A stretch of 64,000 nucleotides of DNA from Terriglobia bacterium (GTDB lineage: Bacteria; Acidobacteriota; Terriglobia; Bryobacterales; Bryobacteraceae): the NCBI GenBank assembly GCA_020073145.1, contig JAIQFS010000021.1:1-64000 (forward strand), given 5' to 3'. Position numbers and translations under genes: made by a program. Positions within the stretch are counted from its first letter, which is position 1. Each line of letters opens with the position of its first letter. The notes beneath the pieces were generated by a model. The model was not told the origin of the DNA. It ran no database searches and worked only from the letters and a program-made list of their open reading frames with translations. Shown in pieces: positions 61,254-64,000 of this stretch.

Positions 61254-61991
61254 ATGACGCAGGCGTTGGAGCTTCGCCAGAAGGTAAATGCCGCTTATTC
61301 GGATGCGGCGGCCCATCCGGAGGGCCGCCACCCGTTTCCGGTAGGCCGCACTTTTGCGGAAGGGGTGGGCTACTCAGCGGAGATCCTCAACCGCGTCCCA
61401 TCCATTTCAGTCGAGGCATTTACGGGTGTGTCCAATGTGTCGGTTTTTGCAGAGATCGCCCGCGGCGAGAGGGTATTGGACCTCGGATGCGGCGCGGGCC
61501 TGGATTCGTTCATTGCTGCGGAGCGGACTGGTGACGGGGGACAGGTTCTGGGGATAGATTTCAGTTTCAGCATGCTGGAACGCGCGCGCCATGCTCAGTT
61601 TGAAGCCGGAGCGGAACGAGTCTCATTCGGTCAGGCTGATGCGGAAAGACTCCCTCTACCGGATGGCTCGATTGACGTCGTGCTGGTCAATGGAATCTTC
61701 AACCTCAATCCCAACCGAGCGGCCATTTTCCGCGAACTTGGCCGCGTGGTGAAGCGGGGCGGAACAGTTTTTTCCGCCGAGTTGACCGTGCGGGAGCCGT
61801 TATCGCCGGACCAGCGGGGCCGCGAATCGAATTGGTTCGCCTGAATCGCTGGGGCCAAGGAAGCGGGCGGCTTCCTCCAGGAGTTTCAAACCGCCGGATT
61901 TCCCCATCCCATTCTGCTGCGCACCTATCGCAACGCCCGAACTGTGAATCCCCTGGTTCTGGTGGCCGAAGTACGTGCCCGGCGAGAATAA
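61254..61991 (+). CDS. SAM-dependent methyltransferase with in-frame TGA, candidate selenoprotein
   Basis: Reading to the first stop gives 196 residues. The frame stays open after that TGA (61842-61844) for 48 codons to TAA at 61989-61991, and the continuation looks like the family's natural C-terminus (FLQEFQTAGF, LLRTYRNARTVNPLVLV). Full length is 245 with the TGA at residue 197, context NWFA-TGA-IAGAK; relatives are expected to have Cys there. Class-I methyltransferase motifs: VLDLGCGAGLDSFIAA, VLGIDFSFSML, LPLPDGSIDVVLVNGI, and VVKRGGTVFSAEL. The arsenite-methyltransferase/UbiE-like opening HPFPVGRTFAEGVGY fits. Either TGA is read as selenocysteine, or the gene carries a recent nonsense mutation. 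Substrate unknown. Confidence 0.72.
61858..61876 (+). promoter_or_regulatory. Possible bacterial SECIS hairpin
   Basis: AGGAAGC (61858-61864) and GCTTCCT (61870-61876) form a perfect seven-pair stem with loop GGGCG, starting 13 bases after the in-frame TGA; the loop begins 20 bases after it. G at the first loop positions and this spacing fit the known pattern of bacterial selenocysteine-insertion elements. CTGG (61849-61852) and CCAG (61877-61880) could add a lower stem. Hairpins arise by chance in GC-rich DNA, so this is supporting evidence only. Confidence 0.5.
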
Positions 61992-62270
61992 ACAAACATG
62001 GCGATGCCGTCAGCCGGTGAATGGCCCAGCGATTCGGCTCTCTTCGAATCAGATGATCCGTCGGAACATCCGCCTCTCTAGCCGTGTCGAATCACCGGTT
62101 TGAGCGATCAAATACTGAAGAAACAGTCGGGCATCTTCGTCAAGACATTGAAGCCAAAGAAGGTGTTTGGGCGAGGGCCCGGACGAGGAAACATTTGTGC
62201 AAGGCTGTCACAAAACTCGCGTGGGCGGTGATATAGCAACGTGGACGCACTGGGTCAAGCGGCTGCGCAG
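61992..62270. other. Intergenic region upstream of the sigma-factor gene
   Basis: About 280 bases. TGTCACAAAAC (62206-62216) resembles the -35 box of some extracytoplasmic sigma factors and lies 35 to 65 bases before the possible starts of the sigma gene, so it may be its autoregulated promoter. No matching -10 was identified. Nothing else recognised. Confidence 0.35.
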
Positions 62271-62795
62271 ATGAAGCCAAATGAAGAGTGGCTGGATATT
62301 GAGCGGATCTTCCGCTTACACTACACCCGCCTGGCCCAGGTGATCGCCCGGGTGGTTCGGGATCCAGCGCGCGCTGAAGAACTCGCCGTCGAGGTTTGCT
62401 TAAAGTGGTCCGCACGGCGCATCACAGACGCCGAGAATTCCGAACGCTGGTTGTACCGCGCTGCCGTGCGCAGCGGCTTAAACGAATTGCGTCACCAAGT
62501 ACGCAGGAGCCGCTATGAACGAGTGGTTTCTTTCGTACGGGGATCACCAACGCCGGAGGAACTCTTAGCAGCGCGACAGGAGCAGGAACGAGTCCGGCTG
62601 CTGTTGGCCACGATCAAACCGCGCGAGGCCGAACTCTTAGTTCTACGAAGCCAGGGATTCACCTATGAGGAATTGGCAGCGATCCTCCACTTGAATCCTG
62701 CATCGATTGGAACGCTGCTCAGCCGCGCGCAACAGACCTTTCGAAAGGAGTACACGAGGCGTTATGGAACCCCGCGACTTGGATCCAAAACGTGA
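62271..62795 (+). CDS. ECF-type sigma factor
   Basis: 174 residues from the ATG at 62271; a GTG at 62241 would add ten. Region 2 runs from IFRLHYTRLAQVIARVVRDP through AEELAVEVCLKWSAR, and region 4 contains LLLATIKPREAELLVLRSQG then FTYEELAAILHLNPASIGTL, the helix-turn-helix that contacts the -35 element. It overlaps the next gene by 32 bases, so the two are translationally coupled. Expected to direct polymerase to a small regulon in response to the state of the membrane protein encoded next to it. Confidence 0.88.
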   Translation: MKPNEEWLDIERIFRLHYTRLAQVIARVVRDPARAEELAVEVCLKWSARRITDAENSERWLYRAAVRSGLNELRHQVRRSRYERVVSFVRGSPTPEELLAARQEQERVRLLLATIKPREAELLVLRSQGFTYEELAAILHLNPASIGTLLSRAQQTFRKEYTRRYGTPRLGSKT

Positions 62796-63531
62796 ACTCA
62801 ACGTCGCCGAGTGGGTGGACCATGAGATGGCCTCACTTGGTCACGAGGAGTGGCAGCCGGACCTGCACAGGGGCCTGGCGCTGCTTCGCGCGCCGAGCGG
62901 AACAACCGGGAGCCGCCGGCGGTGGACCTGGGCCGCCGCAGCTGTCCTGGCGACTTGTTTTTCTCTGATGGCCATGCCGGGCCCACGCGCCTTCGCCGAA
63001 CGATGCGTCTCCGCCTGTGTGAGCGGAACCGGATGGATCCGGGAACTTCTCGCGGGTGGCGCGTCGGGCCCGACTCCGAGTAACGTCTATGTCAAACCCG
63101 GAAACCGGACCATGGCCCCCGATTTCGCGCTCGAGGATGCGAGCGGTCAGCCCGTGCGGTTATCGCAGCTTCGGGGAAATGTTGTGCTGGTGAACTTCTG
63201 GGCTACCTGGTGTGCTCCGTGCCGGGTTGAAATTCCGATGCTCCTCGGGTTCGAGAAGACCTATCGAGATCGCAACTTTAAAATTCTCGGAATTGCTCTC
63301 GATGACGGCGGCTGGAGCTTGGTTCGGCCCTACGCAGACGCCAGAAACATCAGCTATCCGATCCTGCTTGGCAACCAAGGGATTGCCGATCTCTTCGGGC
63401 TCAAAGCCGTACCCACGACGTTCGTTATCGATAGGCAGGGGCGGATTGCCGCAACGCACATCGGCCTTTGCCAGAAGAGCGAGTACGAAGGCGATATCAA
63501 AGCTGTACTGAATGAAAGAATCACACCATGA
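62764..63531 (+). CDS. Membrane-anchored TlpA-like thioredoxin with anti-sigma-like cytoplasmic tail
   Basis: 255 residues. ATG 62764 has GAGG six bases upstream and overlaps the sigma gene. The first 65 residues are hydrophilic and would face the cytoplasm (NVAEWVDHEMASLGHEEWQP); one helix follows (TWAAAAVLATCFSLMAM), then a periplasmic thioredoxin domain: APDFALEDASGQPVRLSQLR, NFWATWCAPCRVEIPML (C150, C153) and AVPTTFVIDRQGRIAA with the cis-Pro. The position and topology match an anti-sigma factor, so the redox state of CAPC might control the sigma factor. The thioredoxin part is certain, the anti-sigma role is inferred. Confidence 0.85.
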   Translation: MEPRDLDPKRELNVAEWVDHEMASLGHEEWQPDLHRGLALLRAPSGTTGSRRRWTWAAAAVLATCFSLMAMPGPRAFAERCVSACVSGTGWIRELLAGGASGPTPSNVYVKPGNRTMAPDFALEDASGQPVRLSQLRGNVVLVNFWATWCAPCRVEIPMLLGFEKTYRDRNFKILGIALDDGGWSLVRPYADARNISYPILLGNQGIADLFGLKAVPTTFVIDRQGRIAATHIGLCQKSEYEGDIKAVLNERITP

Positions 63532-63989
63532 AGAACTTACTTCGAGCCGGGTCCCTCGTGGCGGGTCTTGCCATCGCTGTTTTCAGTTCCGGAAAGAGTG
63601 GGCCATCTCCGGCCATCGACGTGGACCAAGCCTCCGCGAGTCCTCACCTGTCCGGATGGATGGCAAGAATCACGATGCGCGACGGGACGACGCGCACGGT
63701 CAAGTTGGAGGGCGTCGGGTGCACCCGAAGCATTTGTTCCAGGACGGCGATCAAGGCCAGATCTGAATCCGATTCGGTGGTGAGGACCTGGTTCGACGTT
63801 CTGGCCGCAATCCAGGACACGACGTCTCGCGACGCTCTGTTTGTCATGAAAGATGGCACGAAGAAGCGAATGTCGCTGCTCACCGATTTTCGAGTACTGT
63901 ACCTTGCCAATCGTTTCGGCGGGCCGGAGAGGCTGGACCTAGGAGCCGTACAGTCGGTTGAGTTTGTTACGCTGGCGGGCCTGAGGTGA
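63528..63989 (+). CDS. Small secreted protein with a CX4C pair, function unknown
   Basis: 153 residues; its ATG overlaps the TlpA gene's stop (ATGA), so it is coupled to it. Signal peptide MKNLLRAGSLVAGLAIAVFS. The mature part is beta-rich, with two related segments, MRDGTTRTVKLEGVGC and MKDGTKKRMSLLTDFRVLYL. It has only two Cys, C65 and C70 (GCTRSIC), which could form a disulfide. Being encoded directly after a periplasmic thioredoxin, it is a natural candidate for that protein's partner. No family recognised. Confidence 0.75.
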   Translation: MKNLLRAGSLVAGLAIAVFSSGKSGPSPAIDVDQASASPHLSGWMARITMRDGTTRTVKLEGVGCTRSICSRTAIKARSESDSVVRTWFDVLAAIQDTTSRDALFVMKDGTKKRMSLLTDFRVLYLANRFGGPERLDLGAVQSVEFVTLAGLR

Positions 63990-64000
63990 CAAGCGGCCCG

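Follow-up and report, generated by a model that had tools for sequence, protein, structure and literature searches.

An ECF sigma factor operon of Bryobacteraceae encoding a membrane thioredoxin protein with a putative non-zinc anti-sigma tail

The window analysed here was a stretch of 64,000 nt (positions 1 to 64,000, forward strand) of contig JAIQFS010000021.1 (C77) from the 6.3 Mb Terriglobia genome GCA_020073145.1 (G000; Bryobacteraceae). Near its end, three ORFs on the same strand encoded a sigma factor (P0001), a membrane protein (P0002) and a CX4C protein (P0003) (Table 1). As described in the original prediction, the three genes overlapped, by 32 nt between the end of the sigma gene (62795) and the start of P0002 (62764) and by 4 nt between P0002 and P0003. 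Its description of the proteins also held: P0002 combined a tail, one transmembrane (TM) segment and an AhpC-TSA/redoxin domain with a CAPC motif (residues 117-230), and P0003 was secreted-looking with exactly two cysteines. This cassette layout recurred across genera and, more rarely, in other families of the phylum.

The operon may extend further, as a DinB_2 gene running from window positions 63986-64000 on to contig position 64591 (L004) would, with a GTG start, overlap the CX4C stop codon by 4 nt. A DinB_2-like fragment also adjoined a TlpA gene on another contig of the genome (G000:C21; L012 1950-2225, minus strand). Downstream on contig C77 (64738-66375; L004), an ORF appeared, by eye, to join cyclic-nucleotide-binding-like and thioredoxin-reductase-like parts. 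A SAM-dependent methyltransferase gene (window 61254-61991) contained an in-frame TGA (61842-61844), after which the reading continued to 61991; as the genome had a tRNA-Sec match over the cut-off (74.2 bits), this TGA may encode selenocysteine or mark a broken gene. The RNA just 3' of this TGA folded no better than shuffled sequences (z = 1.18).

Table 1. Features of the sigma factor operon and their positions in the window.
Feature	Position	Strand	Details
Predicted autoregulatory ECF promoter	62206..62232	+	TGTCACAA (62206-62213)-N15-TGAT (62229-62232); relatives' consensus TGTCACAA-N15-CGTT
ECF sigma factor P0001	62241..62795	+	184 aa from GTG 62241 (174 aa from ATG 62271); Pfam, TIGR02937, promoter geometry
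Membrane protein P0002	62764..63531	+	255 aa; predicted two-helix cytoplasmic tail, TM helix, juxtamembrane Cys pair, TlpA/ResA-type thioredoxin domain
Putative anti-sigma tail	62764..62919	+	residues ~1-52; predicted helices 14-24 and 28-42; W-x-P motif
Juxtamembrane segment	62989..63021	+	A-x-A motif, C81-x3-C85
TlpA/ResA-type thioredoxin domain	63112..63531	+	CAPC (Cys150, Cys153), extra Cys236
Secreted-looking CX4C protein P0003	63528..63989	+	153 aa; Cys65, Cys70

P0001 was an ECF sigma factor (group IV sigma-70, with regions 2 and 4), matching Sigma70_r2 (25.5 bits; cut-off 24) and Sigma70_r4_2 (30.6 bits; cut-off 25.7) in Pfam and the sigma70-ECF family TIGR02937 (48.6 bits; cut-off 42.9). 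In the window, the predicted promoter was followed after 8 nt by GTG 62241, and in the relatives the consensus was followed 8-9 nt on by the start codon of the sigma gene, mostly GTG. As the window spacing matched that of the relatives, GTG 62241 was considered a likelier start than the ATG 30 nt further on that had originally been chosen. The sigma mRNA is probably leaderless. A promoter with the 15-nt spacing was recognisable, by reaching the score cut, at 43 of the 51 tail-sigma loci described below, and 7-mers of the motif were strongly over-represented, GTCACAA occurring in 28 of 47 upstream regions against 0.4 expected from shuffles. A similar element was found at most sigma relatives of the zinc-type class I (ZAS) kind. 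An ECF-type promoter before its own sigma gene is the usual mark of autoregulation. Beyond the sigma operons, a promoter scan of the genome returned no convincing targets, with seven one-mismatch matches compared to two in the reversed control, five of the seven lacking a gene start at the expected place. One candidate group for P0001 is ECF270, listed with an Acidobacteria example in part of PMC8999054.

The outer domain of P0002 belonged to the TlpA/ResA thioredoxin family (fold with WCxxC): it matched AhpC-TSA with 83.8 bits, ResA and TlpA structures were among its matches, and its closest named relative was in an Acidobacteria MAG. The protein possessed six cysteines (65, 81, 85, 150, 153 and 236), which comprised the CAPC pair as originally described and a juxtamembrane pair, C81/C85, that had been overlooked. 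In a structural model based on a 19-sequence alignment, in which none of the sequences had a homologous tail, the two tail helices were predicted with pLDDT of ~68-74, followed by helices at 52-68 (TM) and 75-86 (weak, carrying the Cys pair) and by the thioredoxin domain, mostly with pLDDT >90. Non-zinc class I anti-sigma domains comprise several helices over at least 50 residues, and class II domains two helices; the model placed two helices in the tail ahead of the TM segment. Residues 1-82 matched no Pfam family at E≤10, and the tail had no sequence match among solved anti-sigma structures. Regarding the ZAS class, the tail had no HxxxCxxC motif, and residues 1-64 were devoid of cysteine. 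The P0002 ATG was preceded by AAAGGAGTA, a Shine-Dalgarno sequence inside the KEY codons of the sigma gene.

Relatives of the tail were collected by profile searches. The first seven members, which seeded the profile, were all drawn from sigma neighbours in 61 genomes. This seven-member profile recovered further cassettes among 399 genomes of the class. A 23-row profile (A5) then gave at least 50 matches in at least 43 of 237 family genomes (E≤1e-4), and the resulting set comprised 52 tails (50 profile matches, G231 and G355); as a limited number of candidates was scored per genome, the tail counts are lower bounds. A sigma gene lay directly upstream on the same strand at 51 of these 52 tails, overlapping the tail gene in 50 (most commonly by 14 or 17 nt), and the sole exception started 17 nt from a contig end. 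Inside the sigma gene before the tail start, AAAGGAGTA or a near match was present for most of the 23 tails checked. A simple [WF]-x-P pattern matched 40 of 51 tails. The W-x-P motif does not arise from the coding of the sigma factor, since the gene overlap reaches only 5-10 residues into the tail.

Searched phylum-wide, the profile gave matches in 6 of 396 genomes, including G611, G654 and G698, which represent three families from outside the class and in which a sigma gene lay upstream of the tail by eye; G698 also possessed RCVEAC after the TM segment (by eye). A fourth match outside the class (G671) was not a sigma-tail cassette. No match to the tail was found in plasmids. A relatives search with full-length P0002 returned at least 80 loci; the profile detected no tail at the 80 listed, the search having picked up the thioredoxin domain alone. 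A mirror-tree test on the TlpA-type cassettes (22 sequences) was uninformative (sigma-tail partial correlation given the thioredoxin domain = 0.12; permutation p = 0.21).

The domains carried outside the membrane by the 52 tails were of TlpA type (25), DsbA/Thioredoxin_4 type (10) or a Cys-poor third type (15), or were broken (2), five of these labels having been assigned by eye (two DsbA, one TlpA and two broken). Three third-type domains scanned against Pfam matched no family over the cut-off. An active-site CXXC was found in 25/25 TlpA-type and 10/10 DsbA-type proteins (by pattern match or by eye), and the tails themselves were nearly Cys-free, with no cysteine in 24/25 TlpA-type, 9/10 DsbA-type and 13/15 third-type proteins. 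A script found at least two cysteines in the juxtamembrane segment of 22/25 TlpA-type, 8/10 DsbA-type and 0/15 third-type proteins; in the DsbA-type G348 protein, a CALGVC motif lay partly outside the segment cut, and by eye 9/10 DsbA-type proteins had a Cys pair. This pair provides the strongest indication of thiol chemistry at the membrane face, but three TlpA-type proteins lacked it. It was also missing from the 15 third-type proteins, so redox sensing does not belong to the tail as such. Within the genome of the window, a paralogous cassette (G000:C11) had the same layout with a DsbA-type outer domain. As a control, a tail-less TlpA protein (G000:C57; L009) stood beside a sigma gene accompanied by a separate putative zinc-type membrane anti-sigma factor, all on the same strand by eye.

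Another 45 sigma loci, none of them a strong match to the tail profile, were also inspected. Directly downstream of the sigma gene, 35 encoded an HxxxCxxC protein and four a weak tail (E between 1.2e-6 and 1.2e-3) with a third-type domain, while four reached a contig end and the two distant loci G424c and G424d had neither. When three of the ZAS-slot proteins were scanned, zf-HC2 exceeded its cut-off in two. On a sigma tree of 93 sequences, from which three incomplete rows were left out (G468b, G488b and G426b), the tail and ZAS labels needed two changes, and the TlpA, DsbA, third-type and ZAS labels five. The ZAS group of 33 formed one starred cluster. The five deepest third-type rows separated from one another on weakly supported branches, and the tail may accordingly have had one origin or several. 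Five zinc-type sister cassettes (L110, L111, L112, L114 and L116) had in common a third gene whose product looked secreted and carried a GAVMGxxVKxAPYSAxEV-like motif; this gene may be the counterpart of the CX4C gene there.

P0003 had no Pfam or NCBIfam match. In a four-member family alignment, the other members were 43-49% identical to it and both cysteines were invariant; the family gave one weak, unrelated match among solved structures (E = 1.3), and a single-sequence structure prediction was unusable (mean pLDDT = 37.9). Strong CX4C matches numbered four among the 399 class genomes (that of the window included), with a fifth at G510:C281, and all five lay behind a TlpA-type cassette and nowhere else. 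All five CX4C-bearing cassettes had a cysteine at the position of Cys236 in P0002. An equivalent of Cys236 was also present in G510:C26, where the contig ends 101 nt past the gene, and the remaining 19 TlpA-type proteins had no cysteine there by eye, two of their C-termini being divergent and some downstream sequence short. As the carriers are related, the pairing of CX4C and Cys236 represents one or a few events and not independent proof. The CX4C gene is an optional addition to the cassette, and its product may serve the thioredoxin domain as a thiol partner via Cys236. In three cassettes (G002, G390 and G365), a second TlpA-like gene took the place of the CX4C gene. A weak CX4C match in G019, spanning four stop codons, was rejected, as was one in G003:C244, which looked like a decayed 3' remnant; another weak match, in G264, contained a stop. 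The G003:C244 remnant (L171 ~1516-1608) lay just before a secreted-MsrA-like gene in a congeneric genome.

CnrY, a known anti-sigma factor, is membrane-bound. In Cupriavidus metallidurans, helix 1 of its class II anti-sigma domain binds sigma-4 and helix 2 binds sigma-2, according to part of PMC7406223. The P0002 tail resembles the short, non-zinc, two-helix cytoplasmic domain of CnrY described there, as far as its structural model goes, but had no sequence match to it, and the P0002 outer domain has a thioredoxin fold. The ZAS proteins of the sister sigma clade (e.g. G000:C26) share with P0002 the gene position, the overlap, a related sigma factor and the kind of promoter, but differ from it in their HxxxCxxC motif and their outer domain. 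Anti-sigma factors activated by regulated proteolysis are cut at two places, site 1 and site 2. In RsiV and RsiP, signal peptidase makes the site-1 cut just outside the membrane, as described in a section of PMC8844934. P0002 likewise has one TM segment and, outside the membrane, a small-residue segment that is a candidate signal peptidase site of the kind reported in that section, although its outer domain and activator differ and its cleavage is a suggestion from sequence. The fold and CXXC of the outer domain are those of TlpA and ResA. To our knowledge, these proteins have a short membrane anchor, with neither a 50-residue cytoplasmic tail nor a juxtamembrane Cys pair.

As the tail tracks the sigma factor, the outer domains swap and a zinc anti-sigma factor fills the slot in relatives, the P0002 tail was interpreted as a short non-zinc anti-sigma domain, a reading well supported by comparison. 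The operon as a whole probably encodes a self-regulating ECF sigma system, with P0002 as a membrane anti-sigma factor bearing a redox-sensing outer part. The original prediction had made the thioredoxin a combined anti-sigma factor and redox sensor; the anti-sigma part gained support from these comparisons, which place the tail protein in the anti-sigma position, while the sensor part is a proposal, as a Cys-poor third domain uses the same kind of tail. The role of partner or signal carrier originally proposed for the CX4C protein is likewise tentative, its gene occurring beside cassettes alone and in few of them. Redox sensing by the cassette is likely, though the data do not require it. The case that would have contradicted the combined role, a tail-less thioredoxin with the sigma gene conserved, was not seen at the 52 tail loci and 45 further sigma loci.

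P0002 could be an anti-sigma factor whose thioredoxin fold is a binding platform or a carried-along enzyme, the signal being other than its own redox state. This is rather unlikely: it would suit the use of the same kind of tail by the third domain (15/52) and the swapping of outer domains on the sigma tree, but not the CXXC retained in all 25 TlpA-type and 10 DsbA-type proteins or the confinement of the extra juxtamembrane Cys pair to the redox types. We consider it very unlikely that the tail is a long signal-peptide n-region, cut from the thioredoxin by signal peptidase after A-x-A so that the latter is secreted as an effector of the sigma factor. Basic residues did precede the TM segment and an A-x-A pattern followed it in 31 of 51 proteins, but the tail has a conserved motif that occurs behind a single type of sigma factor, the tail-less TlpA paralogues of the genome carry short leaders, and zinc anti-sigma factors fill the same slot in sigma relatives. 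Position and comparative data are silent on the sign of the effect, and the tail might assist the sigma factor as a membrane co-activator (positive partner) and not inhibit it. Such a role is highly improbable given that the same-slot proteins of relatives carry HxxxCxxC (35 loci), a type that binds and inhibits ECF sigma factors according to part of PMC7406223.

With P0002 as a membrane anti-sigma factor, the two tail helices would bind the sigma factor in the manner of CnrY and keep it off RNA polymerase, while the outer TlpA-type domain and the juxtamembrane Cys pair would sense the thiol-redox state or a redox client. Sensing would loosen or destroy the tail, perhaps through cleavage at A-x-A by the membrane in the manner of RsiV and RsiP, and the released sigma factor would act at the TGTCACAA-N15-CGTT promoter to transcribe the operon that encodes it, yielding more redox protein. 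The CX4C protein would act as an add-on, possibly using Cys236. More tentatively, the sequence-distinct two-helix domain could be a swappable module joining one ECF clade to sensor enzymes, in which TlpA and DsbA folds exchange disulfides with the outer-face Cys pair, the state of this pair decides whether the anti-sigma factor is kept or cut, and in a few lineages the CX4C protein feeds the relay via Cys236; this full scheme is possible but doubtful.

No printed description of such a system was recognised in the literature searched, the main 2021 ECF re-classification being outside that search. Membrane-bound anti-sigma factors that pair with ECF sigma factors are a known kind; what appears to be new is an unrecognised short anti-sigma domain with exchangeable outer domains, two of which are thioredoxin folds. 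Within a given class I anti-sigma group, fused domains are as a rule conserved according to part of PMC7406223, in contrast to the same kind of tail joined here to differing outer domains in one sigma clade, and the related cassettes look like a modular signalling system. In the portion of the literature consulted, redox-responsive anti-sigma factors act mainly through cytoplasmic zinc-thiol domains, whereas the apparent extracytoplasmic sensor of the present system is a thioredoxin-type enzyme. The cassette offers a testable system for the signalling of envelope thiol state to transcription, and the tail motif can be used to annotate other unlabelled 'TlpA family' genes.
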